A DNA stretch of 64,000 nucleotides from an uncultured Bacteroidota bacterium (GCA_902582405.1 CACHSA010000005.1:1-64000), one strand, 5' to 3'. Shown: positions 1 to 13,090, counted from the first letter of the stretch. The notes: generated by a model from the sequence alone, not told the origin. Translations and numbers: made by a program.

Positions 1-3000
1 GGAAACAGTGTGAGGAGTATAGCAATATAATACAAATAGCTATCCAGGATCCACCCTTAACGGGTCTACAGGTTGGTGCAATTTCTGCACCTGACACAGT
101 TTCAATATGTTCAGGGCAGTTAGTAACTTTTAATGCAACCGGTGGAGGTCAATCTTTTCAATTTTATATTGATGATAATCCTGTTGGTGTGAGGTCAGAT
201 TCAAGTTCGTTATCTTCCAGTACACTAATTGATGGCTCGAGAGTTAAGGTTAAGTCGTGGACCACAAATACTGCTACAGGAGGAGGGTGCTCATCATTCT
301 CTCCAGAAATACTAATAAGTACAAGTCTAGACCCTACAATAAGTTTAACTTCAGACGCGTATTCACTTACTTCTACTAATTCTATTTTTTGTGAAGGAGA
401 TTCAATAACTTTTACAGCTAGTTCAACTTCCGCTATAGCAACTTACACTTTTTCTGTTGGAGGAATAACTTATCAGAACAGTTCAACAAATATTTTTCGT
501 CCAGCAAATTTAACTCCACCAATTTTAATTCCAAATGGATCAAACGTTGTTGTTATTGCATCAACCGCTCTTGGTTGTACATCGTCTGCTACAATATTGA
601 TGACAGAAAATGTAGTTTCTGCAGGGTCAATTGATACTGTTAGTCCAACTATATGTTACGGTGAGGAAGCTTCCGCAATTTTTAATGTTGTAGAAGCAAA
701 TGTGTCAGGTGTACTTGAGTATGCGTGGGAAGCCTCAATCGATAATGGTGCAACATTTACCCCTTATCCATCTTCTTCGAATACCCACACCTTAGTTGAT
801 CCTGGAAATTTATATCAAACCACTTTGTTTAGAAGAAGTGCGAAAAGTACAATAGCTACATTAACTTCATGTACAGAGTACAGTAATACAATTACCATTA
901 CTGTTTTACCTCAGGTAGTTGGAGGAACTATAACTCCAACAACATTAACTATTTGCTCAGGAGAGGTTCCTCCACAATTATCTGTTGTAAGTGGAACTAT
1001 TGGCCCAGGGGTCTCATATAATTGGGAAATCTCTTCAGATGGAGTGCTTTTTACGAGTATTTCTACAGCAACAGGACAAAATTATTCACCATCAGCTTTA
1101 AACTCCACAACATTTTATAGAAGGGTTACCACAGCTGGTAGTGGAGCTGCGAGCACATGTATAGCGGAAAGTACTATTGTTGAAATTAAAGTTTTTGATC
1201 TTGATGCTGGAGCATTGGATCCCTCTCTAAATATGGCTTATTGCTATGGAGTAGACCCACCAACTATTGTAAGTTCAATAACTGGAGGTGTCCCCGATGA
1301 TGCGACAACTAGTATGGGTACTCTAACATACCAATGGGAGATATCTACTAATGGATCTGCTTGGACAGAAATAGCGTCAGCTACAAATGTTGACTATGAC
1401 CCCCCTTCTTTAACCCAAACAACTTGGTTTAGAAGAGTAGCTAAAGCGAGTAATAGTGCATCAGAGTTTTGTGAAGATACTACTGACCCTGTAAGAATAG
1501 AGATATTACCTTCATTAAATGAAGGGTTTATTCTTGATGATCAAGTAATTTGTCAAATTGTTGGCGGAGCTGGGTTACCATCTGATTTGCTTCTTAATGG
1601 CGCCCAAGCTTTAACAAATTCCGTTACTTTTCAATGGCAAAGATCAGTTGATCAATTGAATTGGTACGATATTCAGGGTCAAAGATCTGCTGCTCTTGCA
1701 TTTAATCTTGGAGATGCATGGTTACCAAGTTCATCAGATCCTGCCACTTACTATAGAGGAATAATTACTTATGTTGGAGATCCACAGCCACAAGCCGTTG
1801 AACAAACTATGATAGAAATAGTAGATACTGGGGGTTTTGTTGGTGGTAAATTATACTCCATAGTTGTAAATGGGAATAGATATGATGTAACTTCAAATGC
1901 AACCAATACTTCTGATTCAATAGGCAACTATTTTGCTAGTTATATTAGTTCAACAGATCCTACAGTTAACGCTTCTTATAATTCAGTATCAAACATATTA
2001 ACCCTCAAATCAATTTTACCAGGGAATTTCAACATTGCTGCTTCAACCGGTTTACCATCTCCAACAGTTGCAGTAATTATTGAAAAAGTGAATCCTGAAG
2101 TAAATTTAAGGATTTTAGTTTCAGGCAATACAGGAGGTAGACTTCCTAATGTATTAATGGAAAGTTGTCAAGTTTATACAGAGGTTGTAGCCATTGAGGT
2201 TTTGCCCCCCCCTAGTATTACTCAAGTGAGTGGTGACACATCTCCACAAATCAAATGCGTTGGTAGTGCAATTGATCCTGTAACTTTCACTTTCGGTGGT
2301 GGAGCAACTGGAGTCGAAGTAAGAGATTTAGATCCTGGTTTAAATATTAGCGCACCTGGAGGAGTAGTTACAAATCCATTTGCTGGTTTGAATAACTGGT
2401 ATGAAATAGGTGGTACGTCAACATTTACAATATCTGGAAACGTATCTGGAGACACAACTTTTACGATAGTTACAAGAGGTAGTAGTTGTCCTGAAACAAG
2501 TTTACCTTACTCAATAGTCGTTGAACCGGACCCAGAAACTCCTGACTTCATTAGAATGGGTCAAAATTCTGCTGGTTATGAAATTCTTGAAAGTGCTCCC
2601 GGCTCAGGAATTTGGTACAATAATACAGTTTGCCAAGATAATCTTCCTGCTCCCACAACTCCTGATATTGAATTCTACGCTTGCTACGAAAACGATGCAC
2701 TAACTAGGGTCTTTAACAATCTTGAATGGGACTGGTCACCCTTTGAAGCTGGAAGTATTATAAACAATAATCATCAGGAAACATCTATTAAAATACTACA
2801 GAATCCGTCTGGTCCTACTACAGGAGTTTCTTATCAGATTACTGTGACAATCGGAGGTGTTTCAAGTTTATACTCAGACACCACAGAAACAGGATTAGAA
2901 ACCATTGATCAATTAGGCTTAAGAATTGCCACCTTGGCTAACGCTAACCCTGGAATTGATGCAATTTATAATGATTCAACTAACGATATAGTTTTAGAAT

Positions 3001-6000
3001 CAATTCAAAAAAATACTGCTTTCACTGTTCAGGTTAGTCCAACTGGTCTTGCTCAAGCACTTAGATTGCAAGCTCCAAGTACAGTTCAAATTGTTAGAAG
3101 CGCAACTATGGACTGGACACCTAGTTTTAGTGGTACAGCTACAATAAGAGTAAGATCTATTGGATGTGACGATCAAAGATCAGGTTGGCATGAAGTTGAG
3201 GTATCGGTTGTTCCCCAAGCGATTGTTACACCAACCTTAGCCCCTCTACTGAGTCCAGTAGCTCCCAATTTTCAAATTTGTGGGGGAACTTTTACAGGAG
3301 ATCTTCCAGAGTGTCAAATTCAAGCAACTGACGAACCAGTACAATTTTTTACAGCTAGTGATAACGGAGATTTGCCAAATGATTTTGGATCTTTAGAATG
3401 GAGAATTCATGATGTTTTCCCAGGGTTAGGTTCTTCAGTGAGCTCGCCAGGTATTATTGACGTTAATAGAGGTATCATAACATGGAATGTTGGATGGTAC
3501 GGAAGTTTTGATTTAGAGGTTAGACCTGTAACATGTGAATTTGGCGCTGATGAAAATGATTGGATTACTAGGACTATAGTAATTGGACCAACTGATGGTC
3601 CTATAACTTCGATAACTCCTTCTGGAGCATTACCAGAATGTCCAATTCCTGATGCCGGTTTTTCAACTACTCTCATTACCGGTGGAGAGTCAGTAAGATG
3701 GTTTGTAAATAGTCCAATAGGTTTAACAACGGATACATCTTATCTTACTTCAGCTACTTTTTACGAATTGACACCGACTAACTCCAGTAGCAGTGCTGTT
3801 GAACTAAATTTTAGACCTGGGTTTTCAGGAAATATAATTATTAGTGCAGAACCTGTTCCGTGCCCCGGAGATAGGGTAAATTATGTTATAAATGTACCTG
3901 AGTCTCCCCAGATAAATCTTACATCAGGGTTTAATTCAAATAATATATCTGTTTGTAATGGTAGTGCTATTAATACAATTACATATGACATAATTGGGGC
4001 TGCTAATCTTGTTCTTGCCAAAAATCTTCCCTCTGGTGTTTTACCTATGTTAGACATCACTTCCCAAGTAAGTACAATTACTCTTATAACAGTTAGCCCA
4101 ACGATTGTAGGAAGAACCTATACCTTAATTATAGATAATAAGAGATTCGATTTTCTAACCAATGCTGCTGTAGCTAACGCGGCAGACCACATTGGAAACG
4201 GGCTGGCTGCTAAACTTAACTCAGAAACTAATGATTTTGTTGCAACTTATGCTGGTGGAAACCTTGTTTTAACACCAGGACCAACCGGTACGCCTGGTAA
4301 CTCCTTCATTATTGGAACTGAAGTTCCTGTAAACAGTTCTGTTAATATCGGAGCACCTGTTACCCAACCTTTATCAAAAACATTCAGTATTTATGGAACC
4401 CCATCTATTGTTGGAACAGGAGTATTTACCTACACTGTTGAAACTCAGGCTCCTACTCCAGGTTGTGAAACAGCTGTTTCCACTGGCACAATAACTGTTG
4501 AGGAAAGCGCAAGTATCTCATTTGTTGGTCCAGCAGGAAAAGATCCTAATGCTCCTGGTACAACTATTTGTAACGGAGAAGATTATAATGGAGCCAACGC
4601 TTTAATTTATGAGTTCACAAATGCTGCAGGTTTACAAATCAATCCTTCAACCCCTTTACCAGGTGGACTTTCTTTTGGACTGCAAGGTGGTTTCTTTAAT
4701 AGATATGCTATAACCGGATCTTTAAACTCTCCAACTTTAGTTCAAACCACTTTGGGAGTTGAAATACAAACCTTTGGTGGACAATGTGCCGAAGCTTCAT
4801 ATGTGGTATCATTTACTTTAATTCCTACACCTGAAGCTACGTTAACCTCAAGTGCTTCTTTGGGAACTGATAGAACTGTTTGTACTTCTGAAACACTGAT
4901 TCCTATAAGGTTTGAGATTGCTAACCCTGCATTTACTCTATCTGAGGCTGCAACTTCAACATTCCCTCCAGGAATTGAAGGAACATCTTATGCTCAAAAG
5001 CAAATGAATAGACTTAGCATAATACAAGTTGGGCCAAGCAACCAGACTCAATTTGGAGATACTTTTACAGTAACTATTAATGGAACTCCTTATACTGCTG
5101 CAACTGGAACTGCACAAATGGCAACGGGAACCGCAAATCGAAACCAGTTACATTCTGAATTTTCTGCATTTTTAAGTGCACAACTTTCTCCAACGTATAC
5201 AGTTTCATCGACTGTATTCCCCTTCATTGAGATTGAAGCCACCAACCCAGGTGTCGGGTTTACATTATCTGCGACTTCATCTTCAAGTCTTGGATTTGGT
5301 ACAACTGAAAGAGTGACTGCACCTGCATATTATGAAATTGCTGGAACTGCATCTTCAGCTGCTAGTGGTACATATATATATAGCTTAATATCTGTAGGTG
5401 CAGCAGGTTGTACAGGAGACGGAGTTGCTTCCGGAACTATAACTGTAAATCCAAGTACAAGTGCTTCATATTTTTCTGGCGCGGGTCAAAACCCAACTTT
5501 CTGCGACACAGGTGTATCAAGCTCTTCCATTTTTAGAACTACAGGTAGTCCGATTGCAATTAGCGTTGTAACTCCCACAACTCCGAATTGGATTACAGCA
5601 TCATTAAATGCTGCGGCGAATGAGGTTACTATTAACTTTAACCCACCAACTTTAGGTGTAACAGTAACTACTTCATATAATTATGAATTTAATTTAATTG
5701 GGAATAATTTTGGTTGTACTACAACGCCTTCACCGTTATCTGGTACAGTGTCAATTTCTCCAACGGACAAAATAACCTTATTGACTGGTAATGACAGCCA
5801 AATAGTTTGTGTCAACAATACTCCAACACCTACCTTTGCATTTACTACAATAGAATACGAGTTAGGGGGTGGTGCAAACGCGGTTGGCACAATAACTTAC
5901 TCTCAAGATGGTGCTCCAGCACAGTCTGGATTACCTCCCGGTTTTGGATATAGTTTAACTGCATCCAATACAATTAGAATTCAAGGAGCTGCTGATCCAG

Positions 6001-9000
6001 CTGCTGCAAATTTAGCCTCCTCAACAACGAGATATGAATATAGAATAGAAACGAGTCCAGGTGCTTGTGAAACTGCAATTGCTACTGGTACTATAGAAGT
6101 TAGGACTGCTCCAACATTAGCACTAGTTAGTTCACCAACATCTAGTTCCCAAAATATTTGTGATGACACTGACTTGGAAACTATAATCTATGAATTTGGT
6201 GGAGGTGCTAAAGGAGTAAACTTTACTTGGACAGGATCAAATACATTATTTGGTAAAGGTGTAACTGCTATAGCTTCTGGATCAAATCAATTTAGAATTT
6301 TTGGAAAACCAACTGTAAATGTTACTGAAACAAGGACATATAATTATCAAATCGAAACAGTGGGAAGTGATTGTACTCCTGAAATTGTTTTAACTGGTAG
6401 CTTAATAATTAATCCTACAGACTCTATTACATTAATTTCTGCTGCGAATACAGCTAGCCAAAGTGTTTGTTATAATGATACTGACAATGCTTCTAATACT
6501 ATTGCATTGCCAATTGAAGATGTAATTTATGAAATAGGAGGAGGCGCAATAGGTAAATCATTAACCGTTACCTACTCAGCTAACGGTGGTCCTTCAATAA
6601 ATAATTTACCCACAGGTTTGGGTATATCAGTTACAGGAACTCAAGTTTTAATTTCAGGCTCTATAGTTGCTTCCACTACGTTTACAACACCAACTGTTCA
6701 ATATAAATATCAGATTGTTACTGGTGGAAGTTGCGTTAGTAGTACAATTACTGGAAACTTTACTGTGCATTCACCCCCTATTCTTAACTTAACAAGTGCG
6801 GCAACAACAACCAATCAAGTAGGAGTATTTGCATTATGTACAAATTTAGAATCTATAGCAGACATTACATATGAATACTTCGGTGGAGCTACTGATGTTG
6901 TACTTGAGTGGACAGCAGGAACTTTAACTGGAGTTAATGGAGCAATTACCCCAGGGACGAATCAATTTGTTATTTCAGGGGATCCATCTGTTAATATTAC
7001 CTCTACAACTAATTATCCGTTTGAAGTTAAAACAAATGGAAGTGCTTGTGCGCCTGAAGTAGTTTTAACTGGAACAATTCAAGTTAAACCTCTTGAAACA
7101 ATTACTTTAGCCTCTGACCCTGCAACTGAAAATCAAACCATTTGTGCTGGAACTGGAACAAATACACTAGATCCAATAATTTATAACTTTGGACAGGGTG
7201 CTAATTCAGCGGTTGTGTCTTTTACTCCGAATTTACCTGGTGTTGGAATAACATCAATGAGTAGTACACAGGTGATTATTGGTGGTATCGCCTCTGCTGC
7301 AGCTCAAGCTTCAACTACAATTTTGACTTATAATTACGAAATAACTACTTCAGGTTGTGGACCTGCAACAGATAGTGGAGTAATTACAGTACTTCCTACA
7401 CCTGTTATGCAGTTGTACGCTGGAAATCCAAATCAACCCTCTGTTTGTAATAACGATCCAATATCAGAAATTGATTACATTTTTAATACCCAATCTAATG
7501 CTTCTTATAGTATTTCTTGGGATGTAACTCCAACAGGAATAACGCCTATTTTAGTTTCTGCAGCCGGTGGAACTAACAATGTTGTAAGAATTCAAGGAAC
7601 ACCCTCTGTAAACGTATCTGTAACCACTACTTATAATTATGTATTGACTTTGTCAGGGACTTGCGACCCAGACGTTGTTGAAACTGGTTCTATACAAGTA
7701 GACCCAGGACCGGATATTGACGAAGATTATATTCAGAACTTCCTTGTTAAAGATGTTGAGTGTTACAATGATAACACCGGGTCAATAGTGCTAGGTGATA
7801 CATCTTCACCAGATTTCTTAAATGCTATTAAAAATATAAAACTGGGAACCGTTCAAATTTCCGAAATTAATTTTGGTGGAGGAGCCTTAACTCATACTGA
7901 TATTTTAAGGGTAACAATTAATGGAACTGAATACATTGGTAGAGGAGGGGAAGTGCTTTTAGGAGTTCCCCAAGTATATACTCAAGCTCAAGTGATCAAT
8001 AATTTTATGACTGCAATCAATAATGATCCATCACAATCAGATTTAAGTGTTTCTCAAACTGGTTTTGGTTTAAGATTAGTAGGCGAAGTTGAAGGTGTAA
8101 GTTTCACATTTAGTGCTAATACCTCCGATACTAATGCCATAACAAATACTGTTACTACAACTCAAGTAGCTCAAGCTTATACTCCAGTAGTTACTTGGTA
8201 TTACCCTGACAGTACAGTAGTTCCAGCGAATAATATATATAATCTTTATTCAGGATCGTACGCATTAAATGTAACTGTTGGAGGTTGTACAACTTCAGCG
8301 ACTTTCTTTGTGGATCAACCAGACGAATTATCATTTGAAGTCGATTTCTGTGGTGGTGTAACTGGTGCAATATCTGTTCAAGCTTCTGGAGGGATTGCCC
8401 CCTACACTTACACAGTTGAGTACGATGGCACAAGACTACCCGGTGCAAGTGGAATTAAGGTTAGCAATGGACAAGTAAATTTCACTGGATTGACTCCAGG
8501 GAGACTATATGTTGTTGAGGTTTCTGATTCAAGCTCATGTACTTATGGATTGACAAGAGCAGTAAGAATTCCTACCGCTTTGGATTATGATCCAGCAGTA
8601 GTCGAAAAAACTAATAGTTATTGTGTAACAGGGACTATTGGAAATGGAAGTATTGTTACTACTCCCCTTGATGGAGCAGGAAATCAATTAAATGCATTCT
8701 CTGGTGGGTCTGGAGTTTATACATATAGATGGGTTAGATCTGATACAGGTTCAACCGTAGTATATGGAGTAGGTGCGAATCTTTATAATATTGCTCCTGG
8801 TGACTATTACGTTACTGTAACTGACGCGATTTTAGGTTGTGAATATCCACCACAATTGATTGTTTTAGGAGGCTACAACCCAGTCAGACTTAATGGAGTT
8901 GAAACTGCAAACTTTGAAAATTTGAGAGGTGCAAACCCTGCTACAAGTACTGCAACAGCAGATTATCAATTTACTTTAAATTGTAATGGGGGATCTGACG

Positions 9001-12000
9001 GAGCTTTTGATCTATTTGCAACAGGCGGTTCTGGAAATTTAGATATAACATCTTTATCTCCTGTAGGGCTTGTTCCTGCTGGAAGTGGAGCTGCAGTTAG
9101 CTTATCAAATGTTACAGCTGGAGATTATGTATTCCAGGTTACTGATCTAAGTCCTCCATTAGATCCAAATGGTAACCCTCAATCCGCATGTACTGATATT
9201 ATTACTGTGAGGGTTGTTGAACCTAATCCTCTCTCACTCACATTGATTGATAGTCACAACCCACTCTGCCCAGATGATTTAGTTATTGGAGGTAGATTAG
9301 AATTCGGTGTCAGTGGAGGTAACGCCTTAGCTTTACCGTACACAATAAACTTAAATGGCGGGGTGCTTTCAGCTAACTCAGGGGCGTCTTCTAAAGTAAT
9401 TTTTAGTAACATAAATATTTCTAATCCACTTCAAAGAAGTATTTCCTCAGCAGAAATAGTAGACAATTTTGGTTGTTCACAACAGGTAACATTCACTTAT
9501 GAATTTCCTGAAGTTTACACATACACAGTGGATGTTGACAGTAAGGATATAGATTGTTCAGCTAATACTTCAGGTGAGGTCACATTTACCGTAAATCCAA
9601 GCGATGTGGCTGGTGATTTATCTTCTGGTAACCCAGCTCAATTATATATCAAAGCAAATGGCAGGCCATATGAATACTACGAAACATTAAACACTAACGG
9701 TCCTATTACTGTAACTAACATTACTCAAGCTGATACATATCAATATATAATTTCAGTTAATAATACAACAACTTGTGAAATTGCGAACGGAACTTTTACA
9801 ATTGAGGAAAAAAACAACGAACAATTAGTTCTAGATATTGAAGTTATCCAGGCTGGATGTGGGAATAGTGAAAGTCAAATTTCACTGAATATAACAAATG
9901 CCATCCCTCCTTTAGAAATTAGATGGTACGAAAATCAAAACATAACCACTTCAGCAGTTTATTCATCTACCGCTTCTGGTACTACTGTCCAAACAGCAAC
10001 TTCTACGACACAGAGTTGGGTTGAAATTACAGCACAGCGTGGAAATGCAGTAGTTACTGGATTACCAACAGGAATATACAAAGCTATTGCAACAGATGGA
10101 AGAGTTTCAACTTGTGATGGAAATGAATTTATAACTAGAAACATAGTCATTGCAGAAAGTAGCCTTTCTGTATCTGGTTTCAGAACTACTGACAATATCC
10201 CTTCTGTTGCTGAAGGTGTATGTAAGAATTATCCCGAGCCTTCTGGATCTATAGACTGGCTTTCTACGTCAGGAGGATATACTAATGATATTTTCTTTAG
10301 TATTTCATCTAGTGTGAGAAGAACAACAGCTTACAACGGATTTAATATTTCATTGATTGGACCAGACGGTTCAAATGTTGATCTGTCCGGTAACTCAAAT
10401 ATATTTGGATTACCAACCCAACCTTCACTTCAAAGACCTGGATATACTTACAGATTTAGAAACCTTCCCTCGGGTGAGTATACACTAACAATTACTGAAA
10501 ATGTAACTGGAACTCTTGTTCCTTGTCAGGAAGTCTTTTACTTTACTATTGAAGAATTTTTACCAATCCAATACGACGGTGAAACAATTTTTGAAACTGA
10601 TATATGTACAGGTGCAGTTGACGGTGGTATAACAGCTTCAGCAATAGGCGGAGTTCCTTATATTGTAGATGGAGTTCCTACATATGAATTTGAATGGACA
10701 TACACTCCAACTGATCCATCTGCAAACACTCAAGTTTTTTATGGAGCAAAAGTTGACCCGGCCTATCCAGGAACATATTGTTTGAGAATTATAGATCAAA
10801 ATGCTCACTCTTATTGCTCTTGTGATGCCGCAGAAGCAAATAAGGTAACCATAGAGGTAGAGGATATAGTTGAACCTATTGTGGTTGAAGGAACTTTAGC
10901 TGACCCTAGTAATGTTGGAAATTACCTTAAATCTCTTCCTCCCGACTGTACTAGTGGCGGATTAAATGGTAAAATTGGTATTCAAGTTTCTGGAGGTCAA
11001 TTGCCAAGATCGATTAATTGGTATTTGGAGGATCCTCGTTATCTAAATGACCCTGCAAATCCAGGATATAGACCTTTAACTGAGTTCGATAACAGAACAT
11101 CATTAGATGATCTTCTTCCTGGAAATTATAAAGTGATCATAAGTTCCCAATCTTTAACTGGTTGTGCTAACACAACAAATTATACATACTATGAAGAAAT
11201 AATTCAGGTTTCTCCAAATAGAGAACTCTATATAATGAGTGGTCCTTTTGTAGATGAAGATTTATGTGTTGGTCAACAGGGTAGATTAACAATAGATATT
11301 TTTGATAATAATGAAGGTAATTTAAGTTTTTACTACAACGATATTTTGATTCCTTCTTCAGATGTAGTTAGGTTAAGCGATAGGTCTTGGTCTGTTGCAA
11401 TTGTAAATGCAATTGAAACTGCAGACTTTAGAATCGTAAATGAGGAAGGGTGTTGGATTACAACTGAGGTTAACAGGGGAATAGGAGAACCAAACTTTGA
11501 TTACACTTCTCCAAATTATGAAGCTTCGTCTGTAATTCTAGCAAGAGAAGAAGTTACTTTTAAAAATACATCTACAGATCCATATGTCAAATCCGAATGG
11601 ATATTTGGAGATAATACCACTCCAGAAATTGTTCCTACCTTAGTTGATAGTGTTATTACGGTTAGACATACTTATGGAATTTCAGGAACTTATTTTGCAA
11701 CGTTGAGGATTTACAACGACATAGAGTGTTCAGAGGAAATTACAATACCTATTTCGGTTGGTAAAGGCTATAATATAATGGTTCCAAATGTGTTTACTCC
11801 TAATAAAGATCTTGTAAACGACTACTTTAGACCATTATTTAGTGGATTTAGTAACATGACATTTACAGTTTATGATTTTAGAGGAAATGTAATTTATAAT
11901 GAATACAAAGAGGAAGGTGACATTAATAATATAAAAGGTTTTTCAATTGATGGGTGGGACGGTAATTTTGCTCCATATTCTCCATATTATATTTATACTG

Positions 12001-12068
12001 CTAAAGGTTTACTTTTAGATGGTGAAACAGAAATTGAAAAAAGTGGAACATTTATTTTAATAAAATGA
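1..12068 (+). CDS. Giant T9SS-secreted adhesin (Ig-like, SprB-like, PKD and gliding-motility C-terminal domains), 5' partial
   Basis: The frame is open from position 3 without any stop, so the gene begins left of the window; about 4,021 residues are visible and no signal peptide can be judged. The GTG at 189 is internal. Order seen: Ig-like domains with FYRR/FRRV motifs (about 1-2200), tandem PKD-like modules of about 100-115 residues with GGGA and ISGxP-type motifs (about 2220-7712), SprB-like repeats with C-x-G-x-x-x-G-x-I patterns (about 7720-11210), a PKD domain with GDNTTPE (about 11520-11765), then the CHU_C/type B sorting domain starting PNVFTPN. Five insertion modules interrupt these domains. 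Proteins of this type are exported by the type IX system and act in surface adhesion or gliding; which one applies here is inference. The stop overlaps the start of a PorP/SprF gene by 4 bases. GC is visibly higher than in neighbouring genes, fitting its Ser/Thr/Gly/Ala-rich product. Confidence 0.93.
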   Translation, partial: KQCEEYSNIIQIAIQDPPLTGLQVGAISAPDTVSICSGQLVTFNATGGGQSFQFYIDDNPVGVRSDSSSLSSSTLIDGSRVKVKSWTTNTATGGGCSSFSPEILISTSLDPTISLTSDAYSLTSTNSIFCEGDSITFTASSTSAIATYTFSVGGITYQNSSTNIFRPANLTPPILIPNGSNVVVIASTALGCTSSATILMTENVVSAGSIDTVSPTICYGEEASAIFNVVEANVSGVLEYAWEASIDNGATFTPYPSSSNTHTLVDPGNLYQTTLFRRSAKSTIATLTSCTEYSNTITITVLPQVVGGTITPTTLTICSGEVPPQLSVVSGTIGPGVSYNWEISSDGVLFTSISTATGQNYSPSALNSTTFYRRVTTAGSGAASTCIAESTIVEIKVFDLDAGALDPSLNMAYCYGVDPPTIVSSITGGVPDDATTSMGTLTYQWEISTNGSAWTEIASATNVDYDPPSLTQTTWFRRVAKASNSASEFCEDTTDPVRIEILPSLNEGFILDDQVICQIVGGAGLPSDLLLNGAQALTNSVTFQWQRSVDQLNWYDIQGQRSAALAFNLGDAWLPSSSDPATYYRGIITYVGDPQPQAVEQTMIEIVDTGGFVGGKLYSIVVNGNRYDVTSNATNTSDSIGNYFASYISSTDPTVNASYNSVSNILTLKSILPGNFNIAASTGLPSPTVAVIIEKVNPEVNLRILVSGNTGGRLPNVLMESCQVYTEVVAIEVLPPPSITQVSGDTSPQIKCVGSAIDPVTFTFGGGATGVEVRDLDPGLNISAPGGVVTNPFAGLNNWYEIGGTSTFTISGNVSGDTTFTIVTRGSSCPETSLPYSIVVEPDPETPDFIRMGQNSAGYEILESAPGSGIWYNNTVCQDNLPAPTTPDIEFYACYENDALTRVFNNLEWDWSPFEAGSIINNNHQETSIKILQNPSGPTTGVSYQITVTIGGVSSLYSDTTETGLETIDQLGLRIATLANANPGIDAIYNDSTNDIVLESIQKNTAFTVQVSPTGLAQALRLQAPSTVQIVRSATMDWTPSFSGTATIRVRSIGCDDQRSGWHEVEVSVVPQAIVTPTLAPLLSPVAPNFQICGGTFTGDLPECQIQATDEPVQFFTASDNGDLPNDFGSLEWRIHDVFPGLGSSVSSPGIIDVNRGIITWNVGWYGSFDLEVRPVTCEFGADENDWITRTIVIGPTDGPITSITPSGALPECPIPDAGFSTTLITGGESVRWFVNSPIGLTTDTSYLTSATFYELTPTNSSSSAVELNFRPGFSGNIIISAEPVPCPGDRVNYVINVPESPQINLTSGFNSNNISVCNGSAINTITYDIIGAANLVLAKNLPSGVLPMLDITSQVSTITLITVSPTIVGRTYTLIIDNKRFDFLTNAAVANAADHIGNGLAAKLNSETNDFVATYAGGNLVLTPGPTGTPGNSFIIGTEVPVNSSVNIGAPVTQPLSKTFSIYGTPSIVGTGVFTYTVETQAPTPGCETAVSTGTITVEESASISFVGPAGKDPNAPGTTICNGEDYNGANALIYEFTNAAGLQINPSTPLPGGLSFGLQGGFFNRYAITGSLNSPTLVQTTLGVEIQTFGGQCAEASYVVSFTLIPTPEATLTSSASLGTDRTVCTSETLIPIRFEIANPAFTLSEAATSTFPPGIEGTSYAQKQMNRLSIIQVGPSNQTQFGDTFTVTINGTPYTAATGTAQMATGTANRNQLHSEFSAFLSAQLSPTYTVSSTVFPFIEIEATNPGVGFTLSATSSSSLGFGTTERVTAPAYYEIAGTASSAASGTYIYSLISVGAAGCTGDGVASGTITVNPSTSASYFSGAGQNPTFCDTGVSSSSIFRTTGSPIAISVVTPTTPNWITASLNAAANEVTINFNPPTLGVTVTTSYNYEFNLIGNNFGCTTTPSPLSGTVSISPTDKITLLTGNDSQIVCVNNTPTPTFAFTTIEYELGGGANAVGTITYSQDGAPAQSGLPPGFGYSLTASNTIRIQGAADPAAANLASSTTRYEYRIETSPGACETAIATGTIEVRTAPTLALVSSPTSSSQNICDDTDLETIIYEFGGGAKGVNFTWTGSNTLFGKGVTAIASGSNQFRIFGKPTVNVTETRTYNYQIETVGSDCTPEIVLTGSLIINPTDSITLISAANTASQSVCYNDTDNASNTIALPIEDVIYEIGGGAIGKSLTVTYSANGGPSINNLPTGLGISVTGTQVLISGSIVASTTFTTPTVQYKYQIVTGGSCVSSTITGNFTVHSPPILNLTSAATTTNQVGVFALCTNLESIADITYEYFGGATDVVLEWTAGTLTGVNGAITPGTNQFVISGDPSVNITSTTNYPFEVKTNGSACAPEVVLTGTIQVKPLETITLASDPATENQTICAGTGTNTLDPIIYNFGQGANSAVVSFTPNLPGVGITSMSSTQVIIGGIASAAAQASTTILTYNYEITTSGCGPATDSGVITVLPTPVMQLYAGNPNQPSVCNNDPISEIDYIFNTQSNASYSISWDVTPTGITPILVSAAGGTNNVVRIQGTPSVNVSVTTTYNYVLTLSGTCDPDVVETGSIQVDPGPDIDEDYIQNFLVKDVECYNDNTGSIVLGDTSSPDFLNAIKNIKLGTVQISEINFGGGALTHTDILRVTINGTEYIGRGGEVLLGVPQVYTQAQVINNFMTAINNDPSQSDLSVSQTGFGLRLVGEVEGVSFTFSANTSDTNAITNTVTTTQVAQAYTPVVTWYYPDSTVVPANNIYNLYSGSYALNVTVGGCTTSATFFVDQPDELSFEVDFCGGVTGAISVQASGGIAPYTYTVEYDGTRLPGASGIKVSNGQVNFTGLTPGRLYVVEVSDSSSCTYGLTRAVRIPTALDYDPAVVEKTNSYCVTGTIGNGSIVTTPLDGAGNQLNAFSGGSGVYTYRWVRSDTGSTVVYGVGANLYNIAPGDYYVTVTDAILGCEYPPQLIVLGGYNPVRLNGVETANFENLRGANPATSTATADYQFTLNCNGGSDGAFDLFATGGSGNLDITSLSPVGLVPAGSGAAVSLSNVTAGDYVFQVTDLSPPLDPNGNPQSACTDIITVRVVEPNPLSLTLIDSHNPLCPDDLVIGGRLEFGVSGGNALALPYTINLNGGVLSANSGASSKVIFSNINISNPLQRSISSAEIVDNFGCSQQVTFTYEFPEVYTYTVDVDSKDIDCSANTSGEVTFTVNPSDVAGDLSSGNPAQLYIKANGRPYEYYETLNTNGPITVTNITQADTYQYIISVNNTTTCEIANGTFTIEEKNNEQLVLDIEVIQAGCGNSESQISLNITNAIPPLEIRWYENQNITTSAVYSSTASGTTVQTATSTTQSWVEITAQRGNAVVTGLPTGIYKAIATDGRVSTCDGNEFITRNIVIAESSLSVSGFRTTDNIPSVAEGVCKNYPEPSGSIDWLSTSGGYTNDIFFSISSSVRRTTAYNGFNISLIGPDGSNVDLSGNSNIFGLPTQPSLQRPGYTYRFRNLPSGEYTLTITENVTGTLVPCQEVFYFTIEEFLPIQYDGETIFETDICTGAVDGGITASAIGGVPYIVDGVPTYEFEWTYTPTDPSANTQVFYGAKVDPAYPGTYCLRIIDQNAHSYCSCDAAEANKVTIEVEDIVEPIVVEGTLADPSNVGNYLKSLPPDCTSGGLNGKIGIQVSGGQLPRSINWYLEDPRYLNDPANPGYRPLTEFDNRTSLDDLLPGNYKVIISSQSLTGCANTTNYTYYEEIIQVSPNRELYIMSGPFVDEDLCVGQQGRLTIDIFDNNEGNLSFYYNDILIPSSDVVRLSDRSWSVAIVNAIETADFRIVNEEGCWITTEVNRGIGEPNFDYTSPNYEASSVILAREEVTFKNTSTDPYVKSEWIFGDNTTPEIVPTLVDSVITVRHTYGISGTYFATLRIYNDIECSEEITIPISVGKGYNIMVPNVFTPNKDLVNDYFRPLFSGFSNMTFTVYDFRGNVIYNEYKEEGDINNIKGFSIDGWDGNFAPYSPYYIYTAKGLLLDGETEIEKSGTFILIK
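1842..2070 (+). repeat. Insertion module, copy A (in giant adhesin)
   Basis: The encoded stretch begins GKLYSIVVNGNRYDV and ends near NFNIAASTG. The pattern is a beta-like start with an NG turn, a helix-like I-x-x-x-F/L stretch, then a strand containing LTL and a final F-x-I strand. It lies after an Ig-like domain region ending in YYRGIITYV, and the cysteine strand ESCQVYTEVV follows it. Boundaries are approximate. Confidence 0.6.
2823..3050 (+). repeat. Insertion module, copy B (in giant adhesin)
   Basis: The encoded stretch begins GVSYQITVTIGG and ends near AFTVQVSPTG, matching copy A in the order of its hydrophobic positions (ITV strand, IDQLGLRIATL helix-like stretch, IVLES strand, FTV strand). 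It separates WDWSP from MDWTPSFSGTATI, which look like halves of one host domain. Boundaries are approximate. Confidence 0.6.
4110..4326 (+). repeat. Insertion module, copy C (in giant adhesin)
   Basis: The encoded stretch begins GRTYTLIIDNKRFDF and ends near NSFIIGTE, with the helix-like part HIGNGLAAKL and the strand LVLTPG. It sits in a PKD-like module between LPSGVLP and FSIYGTPS, elements that are only a short linker apart in uninterrupted modules. Boundaries are approximate. Confidence 0.65.
5055..5280 (+). repeat. Insertion module, copy D (in giant adhesin)
   Basis: The encoded stretch begins GDTFTVTINGTPYTA and ends near GFTLSATS, with the helix-like part LHSEFSAFLS. It occupies the same host position as copy C, between FPPGIEG and YYEIAGTAS. 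Boundaries are approximate. Confidence 0.65.
5766..7712 (+). repeat. Six tandem PKD-like modules alternating between two subtypes
   Basis: Six modules of about 100-118 residues start near 5766, 6117, 6423, 6783, 7098 and 7407. Each opens with a (I/L)(T/A)L-type strand, has a cysteine about 15 residues in, then usually a GGGA/GGA or similar element, and closes with YxYxxxT...C...G-x-(I/L)-x-V. Modules 2, 4 and 6 end in C-x-P-(E/D)-(I/V)-V-x-T-G and carry (K/D/T)P(T/S)VN; modules 1, 3 and 5 end in other ways and carry an Ala/Ser-rich loop instead. The alternation suggests growth by duplication of a two-module unit. Confidence 0.65.
7896..8130 (+). repeat. Insertion module, copy E (in giant adhesin)
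   Basis: The encoded stretch begins TDILRVTINGTEYIG and ends near VSFTFSAN, with the helix-like part VINNFMTAINN. It interrupts a SprB-like repeat between its opening (CYNDNTGSIVLG) and the TWYYPDS strand that normally follows soon after. Boundaries are approximate. Confidence 0.65.
11769..12065 (+). other. CHU_C / type B sorting domain of the giant adhesin
   Basis: The last 99 codons or so encode the gliding motility-associated C-terminal domain: VPNVFTPNKD, then FRPLF, a YDFRGNVIY strand, GWDG, YYIYTAKG and a final GTFILIK. In known family members this domain directs export by the type IX secretion system and is associated with PorP/SprF-type partners. Confidence 0.9.
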
Positions 12069-13090
12069 GAAAGCTCAGTCAAATCAAGTACTCTTTGTTT
12101 ATTTTTATATTATACTTAAATGTATTTTACATCAACGGTCAAGAAGATTATATTGTTAACCACTCAAGATTTATGCAAAAAACAAATCCAAGTTACTTCG
12201 GATTTAATAGCTTAAATAAAGTTGGAGTTTTATATAATCAGATGAAGTTAAACGAATTTGATAAAATGGATAATAAATATGTATTTGGTGCAATTTCGTT
12301 TGATAATTTAGATTTTAGCATAGGTTTAGATGTTAATTCATTTAAAATCCAAAATACAGGATTAACTATTAATCTCGCAAACCTAACATATGTTTATAAA
12401 TTACAATTCGATAATGATCTCTTTTTTCTTCCTGCTGTTTCATTAGGTTTTGGAAGTTCAGCAGTGAACCCAGGGAATCTAATTTTCGAAGACCAGTTAA
12501 ATACAACTACAGGATTTATTAATACAGAGTCAATTGATAGGCTTGCACCTGTAATAAGTAATGTAAACTATCTTGACCTGGGGGCATCATTTATGTTGCA
12601 TTCTGAGAAATTTATGGCAGGATTAACATTAAAACACTTAAATAAGCCGAATACATCATTTAATAAAGAAATCCCTTTTGAAAAACCAATTCAACTATCA
12701 GTTCAAGGTGCATATGAATTTGATATCAATCCATATGAAAGAAGATATTTGCCTAGGTATTCTTATCTTTTCGCTTATGGGTCATTTACAAAATTTGGGG
12801 ATTCTGTTTTAATTTATTTATCTCAAGATTTTCAGTTAGGTGAGTTTTCTTTAGGGCTTAGCCAGCAAGCTTCGTCTTTAAACACTTTTGCTCTTAATAA
12901 TATTGGGGTTTCTATTGGTCTAGCTGTTGAGAATTTTGATTTTGGAATTTTATATAATTTTCCCTTCCAATCTCCAGGAGCAGTTTTTTCACCTAGTATT
13001 TTTGAACTTTTTGTCACATTCGACTTCAGTATATATAGAAGAAACAGAAGGGGTCAATATAATAGATTACAAACTGATAATTACTTTTAG
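12065..13090 (+). CDS. PorP/SprF family type IX secretion membrane protein
   Basis: This 341-residue protein has a signal peptide (residues 1-25, hydrophobic core followed by YING, probable cleavage before Q26). It then shows the family opening with HSRFMQKTNPSYFGF and alternating polar/aromatic segments fitting an outer-membrane beta-barrel. PorP/SprF proteins are associated with the T9SS; SprF in Flavobacterium johnsoniae is needed for surface delivery of SprB. The ATG overlaps the stop of the giant adhesin gene (ATGA), implying coupled translation and a dedicated partner. It ends 6 bases from the convergent acyl-CoA dehydrogenase gene. The family call is firm; the pairing is inferred from position. 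Confidence 0.9.
   Translation: MRKLSQIKYSLFIFILYLNVFYINGQEDYIVNHSRFMQKTNPSYFGFNSLNKVGVLYNQMKLNEFDKMDNKYVFGAISFDNLDFSIGLDVNSFKIQNTGLTINLANLTYVYKLQFDNDLFFLPAVSLGFGSSAVNPGNLIFEDQLNTTTGFINTESIDRLAPVISNVNYLDLGASFMLHSEKFMAGLTLKHLNKPNTSFNKEIPFEKPIQLSVQGAYEFDINPYERRYLPRYSYLFAYGSFTKFGDSVLIYLSQDFQLGEFSLGLSQQASSLNTFALNNIGVSIGLAVENFDFGILYNFPFQSPGAVFSPSIFELFVTFDFSIYRRNRRGQYNRLQTDNYF

Follow-up and report, generated by a model that had tools for sequence, protein, structure and literature searches.

The window analysed here, that is the whole stretch of 64,000 nucleotides from an uncultured Bacteroidota bacterium, presumably a marine flavobacterium of small genome (G000:C5, in an assembly of 1.36 Mb that is 70.5% complete), opens with a single open frame at 3..12068 on the plus strand, the strand of all features described below. 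It encodes 4021 aa of a giant adhesin, a putative T9SS cargo, and its 5' end is missing, since the contig starts at position 1 of the window. The evidence base as a whole consists of MAG/SAG assemblies and of an adhesin gene lacking its 5' end. The giant protein is mostly without Pfam match. A putative CHU_C / type B T9SS sorting domain lies at 11778..11975 (PF13585, E 1.7e-4, under the curated cut-off); the matches of the C-terminus are weak, with PF13585 reaching 22.1 bits where the cut-off is 27 and TIGR04131 giving an E-value of 0.065. Directly 3' of the adhesin gene, and overlapping its 3' end by 4 bases, lies a gene for a PorP/SprF outer-membrane carrier (12065..13090, PF11751, E 8.4e-18). 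GldJ (834 bits) and SprA are encoded in the source genome. We regard the giant protein, a probable type B T9SS cargo with a PorP/SprF gene behind it, as SprB-like. It resembles the SprB/SprF gliding adhesin system in its SprB-like repeats, the putative, weakly matching type B sorting domain, the adjoining PorP/SprF gene and the gliding genes of the genome. In the open-access literature, in a search that was not exhaustive, we came across neither split repeats nor sheath-type inserts described for adhesins of the SprB type.

Orthologues from the same genus are about 80% identical and come from single-cell and metagenome assemblies labelled Bacteroidetes, Flavobacteriales or Flavobacteriaceae, the names of which presumably indicate marine surveys. 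The contig end cuts the giant gene at window position 3, and likewise in several of these assemblies (L007, L009, L010). The N-terminal repeats of L007 are near-identical, and this is likely an assembly break point. The G+C content is 0.35-0.40 over the giant gene (window 1-12000), compared to 0.27-0.32 in the remaining window. An ORF of 462 aa elsewhere in the source genome (G000:C25:7212-8477) matches pieces of the GldJ model and is probably a GldK-type paralogue.

Within the giant protein, five segments had been proposed to be diverged copies of one domain of about 75 residues. With a profile built from the copies they were located at 1800..2096 (A, in the loop following the TYYR strand of its host), 2775..3077 (B), 4065..4370 (C), 5001..5324 (D) and 7842..8168 (E). 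The predicted positions were thus right but the length was too short, as the module comprises 92-100 aa (about 95) and has an extra first strand (QxxxIxI), so that it starts about 15 aa upstream of the limits first given. The pattern of the module reads QxxxIxIxG...GxxYxVxINGxxYxxT...LxxxIN...IxLTAxxxGxxF. Leave-one-out profiles confined to the own protein and its same-genus orthologues give a modest similarity, too weak for D and E to serve as a homology test: A reaches 15, B 7.1, C 6.5 and D 4.3 bits, and E -1.9 bits, though correctly placed, against a null of 201 sequences with a maximum of 5-8 bits. A model built from other genera only gives 28.5 bits for A, 40 for B, 62 for C, 76 for D and 9 for E, with a null maximum of 5.0; this model takes in host flanks, and as the own copies had served to find its members in the first place, it is not fully independent. 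Judged by these profile scores, the five segments are homologous copies of one domain family.

The original prediction further stated that the modules split their host domains instead of sitting between them. Host models were made from uninserted domains only, and the test was whether both flanks of a module match complementary parts of one host. The score gain obtained on joining the flanks was rejected as a test of splitting since random excisions in tandem arrays gain equally, and complementary host positions were used in its place. Copy A lies in an Ig-like host of the YxWQxSxD...TTYYRR type, the N-terminal part of which (approximately 1536..1796) covers host positions 3-62 of 97 with 33.9 bits; the last strand (SCQVYTEVVAIEVL, 2139..2205, positions 82-96 of 97), one short strand after the module, scores 2.3 bits, and the joined flanks 45 bits. 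The parts of host B (approximately 2655..2753 and 3096..3209) match positions 3-33 and 46-83 of 85 with 12.1 and 26.9 bits, and an intact host of this type lies 3' of the split one (3321..3590, aa 1107-1196, 118 bits). The placing of A and B in Ig-like regions was therefore correct, their flanks being complementary parts of Ig-like hosts. Host C consists of a Cys...LPxGV half (approximately 3879..4058, positions 3-68 of 124, 40.7 bits) and a FSIYGTPS...GTITV half (approximately 4371..4526, positions 62-112, 27.6 bits), and host D correspondingly of an N-terminal half (approximately 4803..4997, positions 2-65, 34.2 bits) and a C-terminal half (approximately 5316..5475, positions 64-116, 21.7 bits). 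Uninserted hosts of the C/D type are found in tandem at 5427..7721, with copies starting at aa 1809, 1913, 2027, 2249 and 2355. As predicted, C and D interrupt their host at nearly one point (positions 61 and 66). The SprB-like host E is the weakest of the five: its N-terminal part (approximately 7740..7817, positions 6-20 of 79), weak alone, scores 3.4 bits and its C-terminal part (TWYYPD...GSYALNVTVGGC, 8187..8333, positions 32-78 of 79) 11.6 bits. By its sequence the SprB-like repeat of the own protein is weakly split, but at the E site of seven related proteins the flanks reach 7-14 and 17-31 bits.

The same sites recur in other proteins. Thirty units from several genera share the C/D host (Cys-GLPxGV-ISGTPS-Cys); their junctions lie at positions 55-67 of 124 with a median of 61, and the restored host scores 50-97 bits with a model of 43 copies, initially selected as uninserted, although a few of them proved afterwards to be parts of split hosts. 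The A-host junction (model of 93 uninserted copies) falls at 74-82 of 97 in the own protein, G026, G279, G082 (two) and G327, the B-host junction (model of 10 copies) at 28-37 of 85 in the own protein, G128 and G279, and the E-host junction (SprB-like, model of 43 copies) at 26-28 of 79 in five proteins. Four host types are therefore split, each at a fixed loop. They belong to different families, all of them Ig-like, PKD-like or SprB-like beta-sandwich repeats, and for that reason the earlier wording of an insertion into different folds was too strong. Going by the complementary host positions, the splitting is strong for C and D, is seen for A with one short strand after the module, and holds for B and, mainly by way of its relatives, for E. 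Near-tandem copies of the module in unrelated giant proteins would fit ordinary tandem domains between complete neighbours. We consider such an arrangement of the five copies very improbable, because the two flanks of a module complement each other within one host and uninserted orthologous hosts exist; it is contradicted already for copies A-D, and the contradiction is weakest for E.

A discrete domain is also obtained in structure prediction. AlphaFold2 modelled host D together with its module from 26 sequences with a pLDDT of 85.6 and a pTM of 0.76, and module A alone with values of 84.7 and 0.78. In the numbering of the modelled fragment, host strands 54-60 and 171-178 enclose the module, which itself consists of strands 64-71, 83-88 and 91-96, a helix at 109-123 and strands 128-131, 137-142 and 151-155. 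Two invariant host cysteines flank the insert, one on each side. The module is thus predicted to be a discrete alpha/beta domain that emerges between two host strands, as had been anticipated, and the topology of the model suggests that it would project sideways from its host. A Foldseek search with host and module together says little, as its matches, for the most part Ig-like or other beta-sandwich proteins, superposed poorly.

Scanning the protein and the modules against Pfam and NCBIfam gave no family for the module. At a threshold of 0.001 none of 61 modules matched a Pfam family among the matches listed, which were ordered by number of members, and among these PF17481 gave no hit above its curated cut-off. 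The original prediction named relatives in phage tails, and this likeness is borne out. Of the 61 modules, 27 match PHROG 165 'tail sheath' at E-values up to 1 (best 3.6e-9), those of the 27 that were examined individually mapping to profile positions 103-177, and in the PDB residues 96-167 of the Milano sheath (8fop) match with an E-value of 4.7e-6. In phage Mu gpL the matching region is PF17481 (Phage_sheath_domII). The FliD middle region of flagellated members of the phylum sample (L066-L082) also matches the module profile; Pfam Flagellin_IN gave no match in the eight FliD proteins scanned. Compared by hhalign, module and sheath reach 96.6%, module and FliD 95.9% and sheath and FliD 94.8%, where the FliD set was chosen by the module profile and the sheath set, apart from its seed phage, was not. 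The best Foldseek match of the module model is the sheath of cyanophage A-1(L) (8kee, E 6.3e-5, TM 0.74, rmsd 2.6), followed by flagellins, the Mu and Milano sheaths and tail proteins; the viral library likewise returned phage proteins. The fold is accordingly not new, and profile and model comparisons assign the module to a superfamily of phage-sheath insertion domains, FliD and flagellin outer domains.

Such a relation has precedents. In the sheath of Vibrio phage XM1 the corresponding part is described as an insertion domain (InD) with Dali similarity to FliD D3 (PMC10457771), and FliD D3 is nested within D2 (PMC8306008). The module shares with phage sheath domain II (PF17481, PHROG 165, XM1 InD) the fold and a recognisable sequence with the succession of ING-type hairpin, helix and hairpin; in the sheath subunit it is an outward or inserted domain. 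A sheath subunit of a contractile tail, however, carries one copy, whereas here many copies sit in Ig-like repeats of a cell-surface fibre; the subtilisin-like and C-terminal sheath domains (PF04984, PF17482) are absent from the giant protein, and only the inserted domain is common to both. To FliD D3 and the flagellin outer domains it is alike in the hhalign match with the FliD middle region, in the flagellin Foldseek matches and in the nesting of D3 in D2. There, in contrast, the proteins form a flagellar cap or filament and the hosts are the flagellar domains D1/D2.

With a profile of all copies, 14 of the family's 301 genomes gave matches, often several within one protein of 4,400-6,800 aa, and an iterated search gave 19 matches in G082 and 16 in G319 (those of G257, repeats of another Ig-like family, were left out). 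As the proposed profile search of giant proteins reveals, the module occurs in several other Flavobacteriaceae genera, with copy numbers from 1 to about 18 per protein. A SprB-type site of G082 (L047, aa 3471-3654) holds two modules in succession. Proteins of 15,320 and 10,321 aa from another family (L103-L107 in G509 and G598) contain partly degenerate modules 24-46 aa apart, some far apart. The 15,320-aa protein of this set starts with LEPRILLSADP. The module had been suggested to be adapted for loop insertion, which agrees with its fixed loops in the adhesin; given the near-tandem copies in another family of giant proteins, insertion is a habit of the module and not an obligation.

Sites were compared via targeted pairs, all-against-all BLAST of the flanks being too noisy. 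The B site is filled in the own protein, G128 and G279, and is empty with an uninterrupted host in G319 (2841-2932), G110 (1321-1425) and G082 (1052-1146), with E-values of about 1e-4 to 1e-5. The reverse holds for a further site, F (3210..3330), which is empty here and filled in G319 and G110; the G319 flanks without their module align across it (own aa 1033-1173, E 3.5e-15). These aligned pairs show that insertion or loss occurred in both directions between lineages. Further downstream, after a xxxxEWR strand, a second SprB-like site is occupied by a module in G319, G110 and G082 (L043 aa 5910, L052 1392, L047 4304/4735); near aa 3180-3260 of the window protein this site is apparently empty.

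Modules that share a site in different genera are often orthologues, as are own B, C and D and those of G128. In a tree of C/D hosts with 30 split and 45 intact members, in which halves of split hosts were excluded from the uninserted set, the split state needs 5 changes compared to 24 in shuffles, and a single origin of split hosts is not rejected (AU p = 0.31) by this poorly resolved alignment of 80 columns. Because the tree is compatible with one origin, C and D are best read as putative descendants of one or few composites that were duplicated as units of host and module. C and D need not be two insertion events, and the better evidence for repeated insertion comes from the variety of hosts (A, B, C/D, E and also F) and from the filled and empty orthologous sites. 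The module tree (89 columns) contains groups across host types, namely A/B/C (91/90) and G082 A with C/D (99/95), which suggests that modules have passed from one host type to another as well.

That modules of different host types cluster in one lineage (G082 A with C/D, A/B/C) could also reflect neutral accretion, in which insertions are tolerated because the module begins and ends at adjacent points, are spread by recombination inside giant genes or from one such gene to another, and have no selected function. We regard this as quite unlikely, as the same sites remain filled across genera and the dN/dS of the modules is around 0.1. Within the genus dN/dS amounts to about 0.10 for modules, 0.08 for split hosts and 0.05 for uninserted hosts, with dS saturated. 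The modules are thus under purifying selection and evolve at a rate little above that of their hosts, contrary to what diversifying recognition would predict; a hypervariable recognition by the modules is unsupported at about 0.10 with saturated dS.

We are moderately inclined to see here inserted sheath/FliD-type domains which bud from Ig-like loops of a SprF-anchored T9SS giant adhesin as lateral contact surfaces. The module both leaves and re-enters its host at one loop, and for this reason the fibre would remain continuous and the module would bud sideways. Several copies along a fibre, SprF-anchored and possibly gliding, would then form a row of lateral surfaces making contact with glycans, particles, cells or neighbouring fibres, and new copies may have arisen via few insertions into different host types and duplication of host and module units. 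Lateral projection and a contact or binding role are what we infer by analogy. RTX adhesins carry their ligand-binding domains off axis, as outgrowths of Ig-like split domains (PMC12077191). As in these giant fibrillar adhesins, an Ig-like host of the window protein is interrupted and then completed past the insert, which is the architecture of split-domain adhesins. RTX adhesins are however exported by type I secretion and have their CBM, RTX-type or vWFA domains in a distal region that binds ligands, whereas the window protein is probably a T9SS cargo, has a different module fold and bears several copies along its length. FliD was reported to mediate adhesion to mucin (PMC4009794), which is only a hint for the modules as direct binding was not demonstrated there.

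The main rival to a contact surface is a structural role, by which the modules would bind nothing and serve to stiffen, widen or protect the fibre, or to brace the fibres next to it. Sheaths and flagellins have their related domains as outer structural parts, and in phage sheaths and FliD the domain may be structural, which counts against contact surfaces; purifying selection and the conservation of sites across genera also fit a spacer. Orthologous sites can, on the other hand, be empty without loss of the host, and proteins carry between 1 and about 18 copies; neither the folding of the host nor the continuity of the fibre thus depends on any one copy. We take a structural spacer to be rather unlikely.

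Fold and architecture are each known, and it is the combination and the family that are new. The known similarity between sheath insertion domains and FliD, explained earlier by a phage acquiring a host flagellar domain, gains a third setting. The split-domain criterion picks ligand-binding domains in type I secreted adhesins, and this architecture is now extended to T9SS adhesins. Among the giant adhesins of marine flavobacteria, which are long and poorly annotated, about 100 candidate heads were obtained, and the filled and empty orthologous pairs provide natural built-in controls. Reading the lateral surfaces of this adhesin more widely, we tentatively suggest that a loop-insertion domain common to phage tails, flagellar caps and flagellins may serve T9SS adhesins of marine Bacteroidota as an exchangeable lateral ligand-binding head. 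Such a head would move between hosts and be gained or lost per site, and the set of modules may then define the grip of the cell or of its gliding machinery.
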